A stretch of DNA of 64,000 nucleotides, taken from NCBI GenBank assembly GCA_016287875.1, contig JAEEXQ010000004.1, forward strand, positions 18,187-82,186, in the 5' to 3' direction. This DNA comes from Bacteroidales bacterium. Its GTDB lineage: Bacteria; Bacteroidota; Bacteroidia; Bacteroidales; UBA932. The notes beneath the pieces were generated by a model that had not been told where the DNA came from, made no database searches, and saw only the letters and a list, made by a program, of their open reading frames with translations. The number at the start of each line of letters is the position of its first letter. The first letter of the stretch is position 1. This document shows positions 2,779 through 48,471 of this stretch, one piece after another. Both the position numbers and the translations under genes were made by a program.

Positions 2779-3601
2779 GGCTGAAAATTCCTTTAATTAA
2801 ATCTTTGTGTTTGTGCACGGTATTGAAGAGAGCTTCTACATTGATCTTGCTCTCCACGCCGGTGGTGTTGGGATAAACCTGGATGAATCCGCCAGGTACC
2901 TGCTCGGAATAGAGGCTTTCGGGATTCAGCACGGTACCGTAATCGAAGAAGAGTTTGGAAGTAATCTCCTCGACCGAGGCATTCAAGAGCACATCCCTGT
3001 TGTCAAGGATTATGATAGGATCGATGAGGTTCTCGAGATCCTTTACCTGATGAGTGGAAATGACGATGGTCGAGTCCTCGCGGGTGAAGCTCATTATGGC
3101 CTTGCGGAACTGTGCCTTGGAGGGAATGTCAAGACCGTTGGTGGGTTCGTCGAGATACAGATATTTGGTCCTGCAGGCCAGTGCGAAGGAAATCCAAGTC
3201 TTCTTAAGCTGGCCAGCGGACATCTGATTCATCTTCTGTTCGGTGTCCATCTCGAAAATCTTCATCACTTCCTTGAAGATATCGATGGAGAACTCAGGCC
3301 AGAACACTCCTCTGTCGTGTGCGAAGGTCCCTGCCTTAGCCTCGATGGCTGCCACCTCGTCGGGAAGATAGAATTGAGATGAAAGAAAAGCGGGTTCGCG
3401 GTCGAAAGGATCGTGACCATCGACGTCGATGGCTCCGGACTGAACCTGCTTAAGGCCACAGAGCAGAGTAAGCAGAGTGGTCTTGCCCACGCCGTTCTCA
3501 CCCAGCAGCCCGTAGATTTTTCCCTCTTCCAAATTAAGGGAAATATGCTCCAGACAGGGTTTGACCCCATAACTGTAATTGATGTTACCTATTCTTATCA
3601 T
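2771..3601 (-). CDS. ABC transporter ATP-binding protein
   Basis: Walker A GENGVGKTTLL, signature region MSAGQLKK, Walker B YLYLDEPTNGLD. Confidence 0.92.
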   Translation of the reverse strand: MIRIGNINYSYGVKPCLEHISLNLEEGKIYGLLGENGVGKTTLLTLLCGLKQVQSGAIDVDGHDPFDREPAFLSSQFYLPDEVAAIEAKAGTFAHDRGVFWPEFSIDIFKEVMKIFEMDTEQKMNQMSAGQLKKTWISFALACRTKYLYLDEPTNGLDIPSKAQFRKAIMSFTREDSTIVISTHQVKDLENLIDPIIILDNRDVLLNASVEEITSKLFFDYGTVLNPESLYSEQVPGGFIQVYPNTTGVESKINVEALFNTVHKHKDLIKGIFSHE

Positions 3602-3657
3602 AGTGTATTAGTTTAATAGTACACTGCAAAGATAGATATAAAAATCATACTTGCAAA
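3602..3657 (-). promoter_or_regulatory. Bacteroidetes-type promoter (TTTG-N19-TATCTTTG) plus palindromic operator AGTGTA-N12-TACACT
   Basis: Minus strand TTTG (3657-3654), 19 nt, TATCTTTG (3634-3627); inverted repeat at 3602-3625 directly upstream of ATG at 3601. Confidence 0.7.
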
Positions 3658-3710
3658 TTTTTTTTGAAAATTTTTGTTTAATTTGTAGAAGAAAGCTAAA
3701 ACTACTGACA

Positions 3711-4868
3711 ATGAGAAGGATTCATCTCGGACTACTCCCCCGCGTGCTTATCGCTATCGTACTTGGCGTGGTGCTTGGTTTATTCGTTCCGGACTGGTTC
3801 ACGCGCATTTTTCTGAGCTTCAACGGCATCTTCTCCCAGCTGCTGGGATTTATGATACCGCTGATTATAGTGGGGCTTGTGACTGCTGCCATAGGCGACC
3901 TGGGCAATGGTGCCGGGAAGATGCTGCTGGTGACCGTGCTTATAGCATATCTCGACACCGTGATAGTGGCCCTGGGCGGATTCGGAGTCAGCAATGCATT
4001 CTTCCCTACCATAGTATCAAAGGTCGGCAGCGCCGCGGACCTTGCGGAAACAGCAAGCCTTAGCCCCTACTTCAGCATATCCATCCCTCCGATGTTTGAC
4101 GTTATGACTGCCCTGGTCTTTGCCTTCATTATGGGGCTGTGCATAGCTAATTCGGAGATGCCGCTGCTCAAATCCTTCTTCGGCGAATTCAAGTCTTTCA
4201 TCGCCCGGGTAATAGAGAAACTCATAATTCCGCTTCTTCCTATATATATATTCGGCATATTCCTGGAGATGACGGCAACCGGGAAAGTCTTCAGCGTGCT
4301 GAAGGTCTTCACCCTCATAATCGTAGTCATCTTCGCCCTCCATATAATAGTACTGCTCTACGAATTCGCGGTAGCCGGTCTCTTCACAGGGCGTAACCCT
4401 TTCAAACTGCTCGGGAAAATGCTGCCGGCCTATTTCACGGCCCTTGGCACCTCTAGCTCTGCCGCCACCATCCCCGTGACGCTCAGACAATGCGTGGAGA
4501 ATGGCGTGAAGGAGGATGTGGCAGGCTTCACCGTGCCGCTGTGCGCCACAATCCATATGCCCGGCAGCGCGATGAAGATCACCTGCTGCGCCGTAGCCGT
4601 GTGCCTGATGTCCGGAATGCCTTTGGAATTCGGCACCTTCCTGGAATTCGTACTGATGCTTGGCATAATGATGGTCGCCGCCCCCGGAGTGCCCGGAGGT
4701 GCCATTATGGCCGCCCTGGCGCCACTCAGCTCCATTCTGGGTTTCGATGCCGAGCAGCAGGCACTTATGATCGCATTGTACATCGCCATGGACAGCTTCG
4801 GCACCGCCTGCAACGTCACCGGCGACGGCGCCATCGCCCTGATCATCCAACGCCTCTTCAAAAAATAA
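3711..4868 (+). CDS. Dicarboxylate/amino acid:cation symporter (DAACS family)
   Basis: MRRIHLGLLPRVLIAIVLGVVLGLFVPDWF...LGTSSSAATIPVTLRQC...MDSFGTACNVTGDGAIA; ORF track start 3651, start at 3711 preferred. Confidence 0.88.
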   Translation: MRRIHLGLLPRVLIAIVLGVVLGLFVPDWFTRIFLSFNGIFSQLLGFMIPLIIVGLVTAAIGDLGNGAGKMLLVTVLIAYLDTVIVALGGFGVSNAFFPTIVSKVGSAADLAETASLSPYFSISIPPMFDVMTALVFAFIMGLCIANSEMPLLKSFFGEFKSFIARVIEKLIIPLLPIYIFGIFLEMTATGKVFSVLKVFTLIIVVIFALHIIVLLYEFAVAGLFTGRNPFKLLGKMLPAYFTALGTSSSAATIPVTLRQCVENGVKEDVAGFTVPLCATIHMPGSAMKITCCAVAVCLMSGMPLEFGTFLEFVLMLGIMMVAAPGVPGGAIMAALAPLSSILGFDAEQQALMIALYIAMDSFGTACNVTGDGAIALIIQRLFKK

Positions 4869-5128: not shown

Positions 5129-5881
5129 CTACTCCTCGGCAGGCTTCATAGTAGTATAGACGTTGGTAACGTCCTCATCATCCTCCAGCAAGCCAATAAG
5201 CTTCTCGAGAGTAGAACGCTGCTCGGCAGTAACCTCCTTGAGCTCCACGTTAGGGATCTGCTCGAAACCACCGGAAATCAGCTCATAGCCATTCTCCTCG
5301 ATGTACTTCTGGATAGCACCATAAGAAGCATAATCACCGTAGATGACGACCTCCTTGCTTTCGTTGTCGTCCTTGTCGACCACGGTCTCCTCGAAAACCT
5401 CCTCGGCACCGTAGTCGATGAGCTCGAGCTCGAGTTCCTCGATATCCAGGCCTTCGCTTTCCTTGATGCGGAAGACGCACTTATGGTCGAACATAAAGGC
5501 AACGCTGCCGCTGGTACCGAGCGAACCTCCGCACTTGTTGAAATAGCTGCGGACGTTTGCGACAGTACGGGTATTGTTGTCGGTTGCGGTTTCAACAAGG
5601 TATGCAATGCCATAAGGGCCGTAGCCTTCGTAGATAACCTCCTTGAAGTCACCCTGCTTGCTCTCGGTAGCCTTCTTGATGGCACGCTCGATATTCTCCT
5701 TAGGCATCTGCTCGCTGCGGGCCTCCGCCATAAGGGCGCGGAGACGAGGGTTGCCGGTCACATCGGGGCCGCCCTGCTTTACGGCGATGGTAATTTCCTT
5801 TCCAAGTTTGGTGAAGGTGCGGGCCATATGACCCCATCTCTTCATCTTCCTTTCCTTACGGAATTCGAATGCGCGTCCCAT
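5129..5881 (-). CDS. YebC/PmpR family DNA-binding regulatory protein
   Basis: MGRAFEFRKERKMKRWGHMARTFTKLGKEITIAVKQGGPDVTGNPRLR...MPKENIERAIKKA. Confidence 0.95.
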   Translation of the reverse strand: MGRAFEFRKERKMKRWGHMARTFTKLGKEITIAVKQGGPDVTGNPRLRALMAEARSEQMPKENIERAIKKATESKQGDFKEVIYEGYGPYGIAYLVETATDNNTRTVANVRSYFNKCGGSLGTSGSVAFMFDHKCVFRIKESEGLDIEELELELIDYGAEEVFEETVVDKDDNESKEVVIYGDYASYGAIQKYIEENGYELISGGFEQIPNVELKEVTAEQRSTLEKLIGLLEDDEDVTNVYTTMKPAEE

Positions 5882-5884
5882 CGT

Positions 5885-6595
5885 CTACTCCTCCACTGCT
5901 GCAATGTAACGATCGATATCGAAAGCCTCGATGCTCTGAGGATATTTGTCCTTGATAGTCTTATAGCACTCGAGGGCGGCAGCCTTGTCGCCGAGCTGCT
6001 CGAGGGCGAGACCTTCCTTCACGAGATAGGAAGCAGCAAAAGCATTGTCAGCCTTGGCAACAGCCTTCTTGAAAGCAGAAACAGCGTTCTTGTAATCCTC
6101 GAGACCCACATAGGCGTCACCTTCGCAAGCGAGGGCACGGGCTGCGAGGATGGGCTCTTTGCCGTTGTATTTCTTGAGATAGCTGATGGCGCTCTCGAAG
6201 TTGCCGAGCTGGAGCTCGCAGATACCGGCGTACATATAGACAGCCTTGCCGGCCTTGGAGCCATAGGTGTCGATGATCTCGGCGAAACCGAGGACGTTGC
6301 CGTCGCCGTTGAGAGCAATCTCGTATTCACCCTTCTGGAAGTTAGCTTCGGCGGGGAATGCCTGCTCCTGTGCTTCTGCGCACTTGGGCTGGTAGATAAA
6401 CCTCTGATAGCCGAGGATGGCGAGCCATACTACGACGACCGCTGTGAGTGCTCCCCAGATTGTCTTCTTGTAATTCTCGTAAAACTGTTCGAACTTGGAG
6501 ACGCTGTTTTCTACCTGCTCCTGACGAACTTCTTCTTTGCTTTTGCTCTTAGTAGCCATATTGATTTTCGTTTGTATATTCTGAATAGCCTGCAA
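5885..6595 (-). CDS. Tetratricopeptide repeat protein with N-terminal TM helix
   Basis: TIWGALTAVVVVWLAILGYQRF helix then TPR-like repeats; start may be 6559. Confidence 0.75.
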   Translation of the reverse strand: MQAIQNIQTKINMATKSKSKEEVRQEQVENSVSKFEQFYENYKKTIWGALTAVVVVWLAILGYQRFIYQPKCAEAQEQAFPAEANFQKGEYEIALNGDGNVLGFAEIIDTYGSKAGKAVYMYAGICELQLGNFESAISYLKKYNGKEPILAARALACEGDAYVGLEDYKNAVSAFKKAVAKADNAFAASYLVKEGLALEQLGDKAAALECYKTIKDKYPQSIEAFDIDRYIAAVEE

Positions 6596-44321: not shown

Positions 44322-45224
44322 TTATAGTATGTTCATTGACTGTTCGCGGATCTTCTCCAGCTCATCCTTCATGCGCACGACAAGTTTCTGGATGGAGGCG
44401 TTGTTGGCCTTGGAACCGGTGGTATTGATCTCCCGGCCCATTTCCTGGATGATGAATCCGAGCTTCTTTCCGGGGCAGGGTTCGCCATCGATAGTGTCTT
44501 TGAAATAGGCACAGTGCTGACGCAGGCGTACTTTCTCCTCGTTGATGTCGAACTTCTCGAGCCAGAATATCATCTCCTGCTCGAAGCGTTCCTTGTCGAG
44601 CTTGACGCTGAGTTCTTCGGCAGCGGCGAGAATCCTTTCGCGCACCGCTTCCACCCTTTCTGCTTCGTGGGATTCGACCTCGTCTTCGAAGGCCAGGATG
44701 TTAGCGACACGGCCGGTGACATCTTTGTAGAGAGCTTCACCCTCCTTGGCACGATATGCATCGACGGCCTTCAGGGCCTCGTCGAAAGCTGCCTCGACCA
44801 CGGGCCAGTTCTCTTCGTTGATTATGTCTTCCTTCCTGGCAGCTACTACGTCGGGGAAACGCAGGGCGGCCGCAAGAAGCTCGTTGTTCATACGGTCCGA
44901 GGATTCCGTGGAGCCCATTGCGAAACCGGGGAGGCTGCTACGTATGGCGAGCAGCTGGTTGTAGTAGCTGCGCACCACGTCGGCATCAACCACCTTTGCA
45001 GCATCGGCCACGTTTGCCTCGAAATTGATATATACGTCGATAGTTCCGCGAACCAGCATATCAGCTATCTTCTGGCGCACCAGAAGGTCCTTGTCCTTGG
45101 GGAGTATTGAAGATTTGATGCTGATGTCGGCGCTTTTGGAATTCAGGGTACGGATCTCTATGGTCAGTTTACCGGAGGCGAGAACCGCCTCGGCCTTACC
45201 GTATCCTGTCATGGATTTAATCAT
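44322..45224 (-). CDS. YicC family endoribonuclease-like protein
   Basis: MIKSMTGYGKAE N-terminus; C-terminal GKKLGFIIQEMGREINTTGSKANNASIQKLVVRMKDELEKIREQ. Confidence 0.94.
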   Translation of the reverse strand: MIKSMTGYGKAEAVLASGKLTIEIRTLNSKSADISIKSSILPKDKDLLVRQKIADMLVRGTIDVYINFEANVADAAKVVDADVVRSYYNQLLAIRSSLPGFAMGSTESSDRMNNELLAAALRFPDVVAARKEDIINEENWPVVEAAFDEALKAVDAYRAKEGEALYKDVTGRVANILAFEDEVESHEAERVEAVRERILAAAEELSVKLDKERFEQEMIFWLEKFDINEEKVRLRQHCAYFKDTIDGEPCPGKKLGFIIQEMGREINTTGSKANNASIQKLVVRMKDELEKIREQSMNIL

Positions 45225-45372: not shown

Positions 45373-45460
45373 TGCTTGCTAAGTCCCAAAAACAGGGACA
45401 CAGCAAGCAATTTAGGCCTTTTTTGACGGCTACGTCCCAAAAACAGGGACACGGCAAGCA
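45373..45460. repeat. REP-like double-hairpin block, copy 1 (downstream of RAYT)
   Basis: TGCTTGCTaaGTCCCaaaaacaGGGACacAGCAAGCA...GTCCCaaaaacaGGGACacGGCAAGCA; hairpin cores 51 bp apart. Confidence 0.9.
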
Positions 45461-45541
45461 CCAGGCAAAAACACGGACGGCAACAGTCAAAAACACAGCC
45501 GACACTAGGCGCAGAACAGGCGGAAAACACTACAGGCAGCA

Positions 45542-46423
45542 CTAAAGACAGATGTCATCAAGCATCTTGGCAACTGCCTCGTACGGGAGACCGACCACCC
45601 TGGCGACCTGATTGACATCTGCGCAAAACCTTGCTCTCAACTGCTTAAGGAACATTATTAACTGACGGCTATCAAGCTCCGCGGCCGATTGTTTCCTGAA
45701 CATTGAATAGCACAGATCCGGAATGGCAGCGACGATAATCTGGTCGCGGAATTTCGGTGTGATACTTTCATTATTGGCAAGCGCCTTTCTTGCTTTTGAA
45801 GAATTAGCCAAGAAATAATTCATCCTCTTTGGCGTCCGGAAGATCTTTTCCACCGACTCACAGTCGACATATGAAGCTGGGTCTATATACTTCCCATCTC
45901 TCAAGGTCCATTCAGGTGGCAATTTGGTCCCACTGTGGAGAATCCTGATCATTTCACGGCCAGATAATCTCTCAAGCGTAATTCCCTTGGCTCTGTTGAA
46001 ATTAAAAAAGCAATCACCGGTACCCCAAGGATAGCCAGAGGGAGAAAGGCAAATATTCGCAGACACACTATTGACGTTGATGTAAGCGATGACACGCTCG
46101 ACCGCCTCATCCTCCGCCGTAATCTCCTGGATATCGACACCGTTCCCACGGAGGAACTCCTTTACTCCGTACTTGATGCGATAATACCGCGAATACCTAC
46201 GTTTGAATTCATTGATGAATGCCTCCGCTTCCACCCTATTGCGGCAGACAATCAGAAAATGCACGTGGTTGGACATCAGGATGAATGCAATCACTTTGAT
46301 GCCAAAGACATACGACAATACGGCAACGTAATTCATTCCCGTTCTGAAGTCCTCTTCGTCTTTGAACCACAAGCCATCGATAAGATGTTCGGTAGTTATG
46401 AAAAAATAGGTCAAGACACACAT
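45542..46423 (-). CDS. REP-associated tyrosine transposase (Y1/IS200-like HUH) with C-terminal extension
   Basis: HUH motif MSNHVHFLI, candidate catalytic Tyr in FKRRYSRYYRIKYGV, WFKDEEDFRTGMNYVAV. Confidence 0.85.
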   Translation of the reverse strand: MCVLTYFFITTEHLIDGLWFKDEEDFRTGMNYVAVLSYVFGIKVIAFILMSNHVHFLIVCRNRVEAEAFINEFKRRYSRYYRIKYGVKEFLRGNGVDIQEITAEDEAVERVIAYINVNSVSANICLSPSGYPWGTGDCFFNFNRAKGITLERLSGREMIRILHSGTKLPPEWTLRDGKYIDPASYVDCESVEKIFRTPKRMNYFLANSSKARKALANNESITPKFRDQIIVAAIPDLCYSMFRKQSAAELDSRQLIMFLKQLRARFCADVNQVARVVGLPYEAVAKMLDDICL

Positions 46424-46547
46424 ATCTATCTCCTCCTTTAAAAGTTAAAACAAAGTTACCTGACGTTTCACGGGACAGGTCTCTACAAATATAGAAAATA
46501 ATTTTCCAGAAATCAGATATTTTATTGCAGCACAAAAAGATACGAAT

Positions 46548-46635
46548 TGCTTGCTACGTCCCGAAAACTGGGACACGGCAAGCATTTCAGGCCCTTTTTG
46601 ACGGCTACGTCCCAGAAACAGGGACACAGCAAGCA
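46548..46635. repeat. REP-like double-hairpin block, copy 2 (upstream of RAYT)
   Basis: TGCTTGCTacGTCCCgaaaactGGGACacGGCAAGCA...GTCCCagaaacaGGGACacAGCAAGCA; same 51-bp spacing. Confidence 0.9.
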
Positions 46636-46763
46636 CCAGAAAAATAAACAGCCCGGCACCAGCAAAAGACCAGCGCGACACCAGTAACAAGACAGCCAAC
46701 TACCGACGGGAAGCCACGGATCAAAGCGCGGTGAACGCCAAGGCCGTAGCAGCGGCAACCTTA

Positions 46764-46794
46764 TTGCAGGTTTACAAAATAGTTCCTATTTTTG
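46764..46794 (+). promoter_or_regulatory. Bacteroidetes-type promoter for glnS (TTG-N20-TATTTTTG)
   Basis: TTG 46764-46766, 20-nt spacer, TATTTTTG 46787-46794, 25 nt before the ATG. Confidence 0.6.
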
Positions 46795-46818: not shown

Positions 46819-48471
46819 ATGGAAGAAGAACGAAAACTGAATTTCCTGGAAGAAATCATCGAGAATGACCTGAAGTCCGGCAAAGTGGACAGCATACTTA
46901 CACGCTTCCCTCCGGAGCCGAACGGCTATCTGCATCTGGGGCACGCCAAAAGCCTCTGCATAAACTTCGGGCTCGCACAGAAATATGGCGGCAAGACCAA
47001 CCTCCGCTACGACGATACCAACCCCACCAAAGAAGATACCGAATACGTCGATGCCATCAAGGAAGACATCAAGTGGCTCGGCTTCCAGTGGGAGAAAGAG
47101 CTTTATGCCTCCGACTATTTCGACCAGCTCTACGAATGGGCGGAGCAGCTGATCCAGCGCGGTCTGGCCTATGTGGACGACCAGACCCAGGAAGAGATCA
47201 GCGCGGGACGCGGCACCGTGGAGACTCCCGGCAAGGAGAGCCCCTGGCGCAACCGCACCCCCGAAGAGAACCTCAGGATCTTCCGCGAGATGCGTGACGG
47301 CAAATATCCCGACGGAGCCAAGGTTCTCCGCGCCAAGATAGATATGGCACATCCCAACATGATGTTCCGCGACCCTATCCTCTACCGCATCAAACACGCG
47401 CATCATCATCGCACCGGAGACAAATGGTGCATCTACCCGATGTACGACTACACCCACGGCCAGTGCGACTCCATCGAGCATATCACCCACTCCATATGCA
47501 CCCTCGAATTCGACGTGCACCGTCCGCTCTACGACTGGTTCATCGAGACTCTGGGCATCTTCCCCAGCCATCAGTATGAGTTCGCCCGCCTGAACCTCAC
47601 CTACACCCTTATGAGCAAGCGCAAGCTTCTCGAACTGGTGCAGAAGGGTCTGGTTGCAGGATGGGACGACCCCCGCATGCCTACGCTCTGCGGAGTGCGC
47701 CGCCGCGGCTACACCGCCGAGGCCCTCAAGATGTTCTGCGACAAGATAGGCGTCAGCAAGCGCGACCAGCTGATGGACATCCAGCTCCTCGAATGGTGCG
47801 TAAGACAGGATCTCAACGCCCGCTCCAACCGCTATATGGTGGTTCAGGATCCCGTCAAGCTCACCATAACCAACTATCCTGACGGGCAGGTGGAATGGTT
47901 CGACTGCCCCCTCAACCCGGCAGAACCCGAAGGAGCCACCCGCAAGGTTCCTTTCACCAAGGAACTCTATATCGAACGCGCAGACTTCATGGAGGATGCT
48001 CCCAAGAAGTTCTTCCGACTCAAACCCGACGGAGAAGTCCGCCTGAAATACACCTACATCATCAAGTGCGACGAGGTCATCAAGGACGCCGAAGGCAATA
48101 TCGTAGAGCTGAAGTGCAGCTACGACCCTTCGACCAGGCCCGGAAACGGAGAATGGCGCAGCGTCAAGGGTACCATCCATTGGGTGAGCACCCAGTTCGC
48201 GAAGGAGATCACCCTGCGCAACTACGACCGCCTCTTCACCCTCGCAGATATGAGCCAGGTGCCCGAGGACAAGGACTACAAGGACTTCCTCAATCCCGAA
48301 TCCCTCGTAGTAACCAAGGCATTCGCCGAGCCCGCCCTGCTGGAAGACAAATCCGGAATCGCGGTCCAGTTCGAGCGCACCGGCTATTATGTGCAGGATA
48401 AGGACAGCACCCCCGAAGAGCCCGTCTTCAACAAGACTACTTCGCTGAAGGATTCGTACAAGCCGGAGTAA
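46819..48471 (+). CDS. glnS: Glutaminyl-tRNA synthetase
   Basis: RFPPEPNGYLHLGHAKSLCINFGLA, YDDTNPTKEDTEYVDAI, TYTLMSKRKLLELV. Confidence 0.95.
   Translation: MEEERKLNFLEEIIENDLKSGKVDSILTRFPPEPNGYLHLGHAKSLCINFGLAQKYGGKTNLRYDDTNPTKEDTEYVDAIKEDIKWLGFQWEKELYASDYFDQLYEWAEQLIQRGLAYVDDQTQEEISAGRGTVETPGKESPWRNRTPEENLRIFREMRDGKYPDGAKVLRAKIDMAHPNMMFRDPILYRIKHAHHHRTGDKWCIYPMYDYTHGQCDSIEHITHSICTLEFDVHRPLYDWFIETLGIFPSHQYEFARLNLTYTLMSKRKLLELVQKGLVAGWDDPRMPTLCGVRRRGYTAEALKMFCDKIGVSKRDQLMDIQLLEWCVRQDLNARSNRYMVVQDPVKLTITNYPDGQVEWFDCPLNPAEPEGATRKVPFTKELYIERADFMEDAPKKFFRLKPDGEVRLKYTYIIKCDEVIKDAEGNIVELKCSYDPSTRPGNGEWRSVKGTIHWVSTQFAKEITLRNYDRLFTLADMSQVPEDKDYKDFLNPESLVVTKAFAEPALLEDKSGIAVQFERTGYYVQDKDSTPEEPVFNKTTSLKDSYKPE

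Follow-up and report, generated by a model that had tools for sequence, protein, structure and literature searches.

The Locus

The DNA analyzed here, referred to as the window, is a 64,000-nucleotide stretch of a Bacteroidales genome (assembly of 2.18 Mb in 106 contigs, 97% complete). The host genus is represented by more than 120 species genomes, and its named relatives are uncultured Bacteroidales known mostly from metagenomes of the rumen or other ruminant stomachs. Between yicC-type and glnS genes, the window carries an intact transposase gene bracketed by two 88-nt double-hairpin units, and the features of the locus are as follows.

44322-45224, minus strand: yicC-type gene, left neighbor of the insertion site (open reading frame; found near divergent glnS without a transposase in 13 relatives)
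45373-45460, minus strand: 88-nt double-hairpin unit, downstream copy, 3' of the gene (sequence; 75.0 bits, E = 2e-16 with covariance model R1; its 37-14-37 build is kept in relatives). Read on the plus strand: hairpin 45373-45409; linker 45410-45423, ATTTAGGCCTTTTT; hairpin 45424-45460, with a decayed outer arm
45542-46423, minus strand: intact gene for a RAYT-like Y1 HUH transposase of 293 aa (open reading frame; PF01797, E = 1.6e-7; AlphaFold pLDDT 91, top solved match 4er8)
46082-46084, minus strand: codon for Y114, which is presumably the nucleophile, in the motif YINVNS (clade consensus Y[VI]QMN[CS]; Y114 and N118 invariant in 53/53 homologs)
46259-46267, minus strand: codons for the HUH motif H53-V-H55 (both histidines invariant in 53/53 homologs)
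46548-46635, minus strand: 88-nt double-hairpin unit, upstream copy, 5' of the gene (sequence; 75.2 bits with R1; 79/88 identical to the downstream copy). Hairpin 46548-46584; linker 46585-46598; hairpin 46599-46635; the start codon is 124 bp away
46819-48471, plus strand: glutaminyl-tRNA synthetase gene glnS, right neighbor of the insertion site (open reading frame; synteny test)

The original prediction, made from the window alone, was of two 88-nt blocks in the same orientation, each with two GTCCC-7 nt-GGGAC cores 51 bp apart, on either side of a Y1 HUH gene. All of this was borne out: the blocks differ at nine positions, their cores start at 45383 and 45434 and at 46558 and 46609, with no further such core in the 64-kb window, and the protein matches Pfam Y1_Tnp above its cut-off. 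The blocks formed the top direct repeat in a repeat search of the window, the first block retrieved the second from the whole genome at E = 2.9e-28, and both were recovered at about E = 2e-16 by R1, a covariance model of the architecture. Weaker similarity extends past the blocks (81% over 127 nt), and in each block the outer arm of one hairpin has decayed (TGACGGC, as against TGCTTGC in its partner). Chance or assembly duplication as the source of the paired blocks was ruled out, as the same build recurs in dozens of independent assemblies. Degenerate, low-complexity, repeat-like tracts adjoin the units in the window (45461-45541 and 46636-46780) and on host contigs C26, C27, C62, and C71, lengthening intergenic regions past what the units alone account for.

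The Transposase

A sequence search of solved structures returned weak IS200 matches only, and the relationship of the protein emerged by fold search. For the AlphaFold model, the best solved match was 4er8, a complex of the E. coli RAYT with a REP hairpin, followed by the TnpA proteins of ISDra2 and IS608. The model also predicts a helical C-terminal region of about 150 residues that exceeds the 4er8-type core, in a protein of about 290 aa. Fifty-three distinct homologs, 43-55% identical to the window protein, were aligned (A2) and constitute the clade referred to below as clade A; H53, H55, Y114, N118, and W133 are invariant in all of them. The HUH motif, the one tyrosine, and the IS200-type fold place the protein in the Y1 HUH superfamily.

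N118 is followed by C or S in 47/53 homologs and by P in 6/53, and W133 by G in 49/53; the class-2 signature Y---NP plus WQ or WE (PMC6006769) is not a property of this clade. Against the NCBIfam RAYT model NF047646 the window protein scores 33.4 bits, below the required 80. The gene had been proposed to be a Bacteroidales RAYT, and it is indeed RAYT-like and accompanied by its own REP-like family; the sub-cut-off score and missing class-2 residues nevertheless mark it as a divergent sister of the RAYTs and not as a plain member, in a clade of its own. In the E. coli RAYT, the GTAG foot is contacted by a set of residues that includes Q95, beside W94 (PMC6006769); clade A has neither a Q beside the conserved W nor a conserved GTAG foot on its repeats.

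Architecture of the Unit

In relatives, the unit consists of a hairpin with 15-bp arms and a 7-nt loop, a 14-nt linker, A/T-rich with GGCC at its center, and a second such hairpin, amounting to 88 nt. Stem sequences differ widely between relatives, beside homologs at 43-56% protein identity, and the build is constant. Twenty-two units align without gaps, with G2, G24, C36, G53, C65, G75, and C87 invariant. In alignment A1, 90% of arm cells are paired and 26 of 30 pairs have changed on both sides, compared with 34-39% paired in slid or shifted-partner controls, counts that are inflated in that the rows were picked partly for pairing. For this reason, the independent test is the search with R1, which was built from A1 and recovered families on which it had not been trained, among them the TGTTCC family of the host and the dispersed copies of one relative, G081 (E = 1e-9 to 1e-17). 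R1 also recovered units with one-base length changes that were missed by a fixed-length scan, and a strict 17-nt hairpin-core pattern recovers window-type copies only and so undercounts the family. In Rfam, the units gave chance-level matches below threshold only, with no family above its threshold.

Consensus units begin with TG and end with CA, preceded by AAG and followed by CTT, and the aligned units have no conserved GTAG foot; the GTAG of the window sits within the stem and is not common to other units. A relation to 'CGTC-tagged' REPs (PMC3733652), suggested by CCGTCA in the window arms, was dropped since CCGTCA is absent from other units. As single-stranded DNA, the units of the window are much more stably folded than shuffled sequences (z -3.4 to -4.9), with similar energies for separate hairpins and for one long nested hairpin, an alternative that has been discussed for REPINs (PMC3116915).

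The halves of the unit had been read as a head-to-tail tandem, in distinction from the inverted pairing of REPINs. Within units this reading is weak: of 69 units, 28 have arms that match better in direct orientation and 9 have arms that match better inverted, whereas the near-perfect palindromy of the arms leaves 32 tied; a long hairpin is possible as well. The window halves match at 30-32/37 positions directly versus 22-24/37 inverted. What stands is the arrangement of whole units, which bracket the gene as direct repeats, and this is the firmer departure from the textbook.

Linkage of Units to the Transposase

At E <= 0.01, R1 detects units no more than 1.6 kb from 37/53 clade genes, on both sides in 23; the remaining 16 have no such unit within that distance, some loci being cut by contig ends. 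Median distances to the gene are 129 bp for upstream and 25 bp for downstream units. Flanking units are direct in the window and at most loci with a detected pair, and clearly inverted at three (L043, L057, and L063). At a further locus (L114), overlapping unit matches follow one another at steps of 52 to 104 nt on both sides of a clade-A gene (3464-3931 and 5876-6068), and the double hairpin seems to have been amplified in tandem.

It could be asked of the original prediction whether the repeats go with the transposase or occur irrespective of it; they follow the clade. Units were found in 57 of 121 genus genomes, comprising 45/53 with a clade-A gene (called at E < 1e-60) and 12/68 without (odds ratio 26, p = 7e-14, kinship among the 121 genomes being ignored). 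The 12 genomes with units in which no clade-A gene was found include some that are nearly complete (G045 and G073), and eight genomes with the gene had no units at the threshold used; these are metagenome-assembled genomes and incomplete. Outside the genus, no unit was found among the candidates scored in about 79 relatives (in a search of 200) or in any of 395 phylum genomes, about 470 other Bacteroidota in total. Per-genome counts in these large searches are lower bounds.

Stem sequence and protein have diverged together. Mean best stem identity is 0.92 for proteins more than 70% identical and 0.62-0.64 for those at 45-60%, and the two divergences are correlated (Mantel rho 0.21, p = 0.002). 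Judged from such comparisons, co-divergence would fit a stem that serves as an address for the enzyme; it would fit simple descent too.

Dispersed Units

Further copies had been expected in the host and its relatives, and they were found in both. The host carries at least about 20 strong units, all with E <= 2.6e-8, the next candidate having E = 0.011. The window gene accounts for a flanking pair, as does a second clade-A gene, which lies on contig C103, encodes a protein 55% identical to that of the window, and has units with a different stem; two more lie on C27 and C34, and at least 14 belong to the TGTTCC family. The units on C27 and C34 resemble the window stem (65/88 identity versus 42-48 for other families) and are, beyond the flanking pair, its only dispersed relatives among the host units found. 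The prediction that the window gene has its own REP family in this genome thus holds in that more copies exist; the window stem itself has just these two diverged ones, and the 14-copy family has another stem.

That family, with stem TGTTCC[C/T]GGTCTGC, includes three copies identical over 88 nt in differing contexts; one of them, behind two tRNA genes on C68, has an unrelated left flank that sets in directly at the unit's first base. No transposase for the family was found in the host assembly, and since many copies lie near contig ends, the enzyme may be lost or unassembled. Three other genomes contain at most one weak match each, indicating that the family expanded in the host species.

G081 has one clade-A gene, two flanking units, and 10 dispersed units with the same stem and unrelated flanks. 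Mean pairwise identity is 0.76 inside the 88 nt and 0.26, the background level, outside, a drop at the borders which suggests spread of the unit in the manner of a REPIN-like miniature element. Arms are 0.86-0.92 identical between these copies and loops about 0.5. AAG before and CTT after units are above chance (A at -2 in 43/58, p = 2e-16). In G081, 10 of the 12 units fall between genes, often 20-60 bp beyond the end of one; the tally is restricted to this genome because elsewhere long spurious frames cross the GC-rich palindromes.

Other Y1 transposases and repeats coexist with the units in the host. A second REP family, GGGCAAGGTCTRATTTC, gave at least 29 matches (none for the reversed control) on C76, C26, C62, C91, C44, and other contigs, often in inverted orientation as pairs spaced by 81 nt, and resembles a classical inverted REPIN; its copies are often interleaved with 88-nt units in BIME-like mosaics. 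On C76 (L033), repeats at 975 and 1056 adjoin a further RAYT-like gene at 1063-1968. Four more Y1 transposase genes (L028, L029, L030, and L032; two on C77 and one each on C44 and C25) bring the number to seven in this 2.2-Mb genome; three are bracketed by their own single long hairpins, direct on C77 and C25 and inverted on C44, and L029 has a single long perfect hairpin upstream only.

Movement of the Gene and Alternative Explanations

In 13 relatives, glnS and yicC are divergent neighbors 65-341 bp apart with no transposase between them; in the window they are separated by 1594 bp that contain the element, and in two other relatives a different gene lies between them. Among 1378 pairs of clade-A loci, five share flanking genes on both sides, and this rarity of synteny indicates that the gene changes place over species time. 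One of the five pairs (L055 and L061) encodes 98% identical proteins at the same locus in two species and would be useful for timing unit turnover.

These observations would suit an autonomous IS200/IS605-like insertion sequence in which the gene and both blocks move together, the blocks being its ends and solitary units being end-derived miniature elements. The left and right ends of such an element are read on the same strand, which would account for the direct orientation, and the stereotyped spacing on both sides of the gene is also in keeping with it. We nonetheless consider it unlikely. IS200 elements are multicopy and near-identical (PMC6006769), whereas no genome examined holds near-identical multiple copies of the gene, which speaks against an ordinary insertion sequence; the two clade-A genes of the host, as noted, are 55% identical, and paralogs within other genomes have likewise diverged. 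There is one gene per stem in each closely examined genome, the two host genes having different stems and G081 having one gene and 12 units. The inverted unit pairs at three loci also count against it, and neither tnpB nor other cargo accompanies the element.

Alternatively, the units could be selected terminators, RNA-stabilizing elements, or nucleoid elements that a domesticated transposase maintains or edits, with no important mobility today. The intergenic positions of G081 units shortly after gene ends, the strict conservation of the catalytic residues, and the persistence of units in genomes from which the gene was not recovered are all compatible with this explanation, which is rendered very unlikely by stems that differ between species, by families that expand in single species (as with the 14 TGTTCC copies), by the unrelated flanks of copies within one genome, and by the lack of an Rfam match above threshold. 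A third explanation, in which the upstream unit acts as a hairpin for autoregulation of the transposase gene and the downstream one as its terminator, with dispersion incidental, draws on the fixed positions of both (upstream of most genes at 56-170 bp and downstream at 4-85 bp) but is highly improbable, as it explains neither same-stem copies far from the gene nor the near-identity of the two flanking copies.

Relationship to Known Systems

The domesticated transposases known from bacteria are the RAYT-REP pairs. To our knowledge, work on them has dealt almost exclusively with gamma-proteobacteria whose REPs are GTAG-footed. The literature searched, which leaves out most subscription papers, contained general surveys only for RAYTs and REPs of Bacteroidetes or Bacteroidales and no description of this system; one survey mentions Bacteroidetes genes with 'atypical secondary structures' (PMC6006769).

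Clade A shares with RAYT/TnpA_REP proteins (E. coli YafM/RAYT, 4er8) the Y1 HUH core, to which it gave its best structural match, a single gene per repeat family, linkage to specific palindromic flanking repeats, and repeats that are mostly intergenic, as judged here in G081. A specific palindromic repeat that flanks the gene and is dispersed in the genome is likewise present (at 37/53 genes, with 10 dispersed copies in G081 and two diverged ones for the window). The differences are Y-x-x-x-N-[C/S] in place of Y---NP in 47/53 and W-G in place of W-Q/E, a length of about 290 aa with a predicted helical C-terminal extension, hairpins without a conserved GTAG foot, and units that bracket the gene mostly as direct repeats, whereas the REPs beside RAYTs have been described as inverted in every case (PMC2817692). 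The system works like RAYT/REPIN; strict RAYT membership as published fails on the signature, the GTAG/GTGG foot, and the flank orientation, and the curated cut-off is not reached.

REPINs of Pseudomonas fluorescens SBW25 likewise combine two palindromes in one mobile unit of about 100 nt that can form two hairpins or one long one, and are dispersed in intergenic regions (PMC3116915); they are mobilized in trans by a RAYT, as is probable here. Paired palindromes whose homology stops at the unit borders are found both in G081 and among host copies in different contexts. Unlike REPINs, each half of the present unit forms a full, near-perfect palindrome of 37 nt and not a single inverted imperfect REP, the 37-14-37 length is exact, copy number is low (at least about 10-20 per genome), and the halves are direct or indistinguishable, not clearly inverted.

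TnpA_Y1 subclass 2.6, which corresponds to RAYT group 5, has in common with clade A its occurrence in Bacteroidetes, an NH[LIV]H motif, the lack of a GTAG consensus, and atypical flanking secondary structures that recur at other genomic positions (PMC6006769). Compared by published description, that subclass has WQ, YIH[QN]NP, and a median length of 179 aa, as against WG, Y[VI]QMN[CS], and about 290 aa here. TIRYTs and TIRtrons also place a RAYT-type gene between long non-GTAG repeats, some of them double palindromic (PMC3733652), but theirs are terminal inverted repeats and those of clade A are mostly direct.

A Proposed Mechanism and Its Significance

The locus is probably a RAYT/REPIN-type system that moves 88-nt units, its clade being new and confined to the genus. 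A single-copy Y1 HUH transposase, with H53 and H55 as metal site and Y114 as nucleophile, would recognize the rigid 88-nt unit, probably in single-stranded form on the lagging strand. The seven or eight middle base pairs of the stem may serve as the address that ties an enzyme to its own units, set in a constant frame of TG...CA ends, inner GTCC/GGAC pairs, 7-nt loop, and linker. Cleavage would take place at the ends of the unit; given that the RAYTs of E. coli and Stenotrophomonas cleave at CT beside the REP (PMC8266576), the CT after the unit, where the boundary dinucleotides are AG and CT, is the likely site. The 88 nt would then be moved or copied to other intergenic sites, by a replicative or cut-and-paste route, with the two units bracketing the gene as source copies.

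A bolder extension, which we regard as possible though somewhat doubtful, is that clade A belongs to a separate class of Y1 transposase-repeat systems outside the published RAYT subclasses. Such a class would combine a constant 88-nt chassis with an exchangeable stem address that co-diverges with the enzyme, so that each lineage founds its own orthogonal REPIN family, and its direct-repeat bracket might allow gene and units also to move together as one single-stranded unit.

The occurrence of the same rigid unit with different stems in more than 50 species of one genus offers a natural experiment on the co-evolution of enzyme and target. The joint loss of the residues linked to GTAG recognition and of the GTAG foot itself provides a testable prediction on how the target is read. 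Rules of recognition, the co-evolution of stem and enzyme, and the birth of REPIN families should thus be readable from natural variants.
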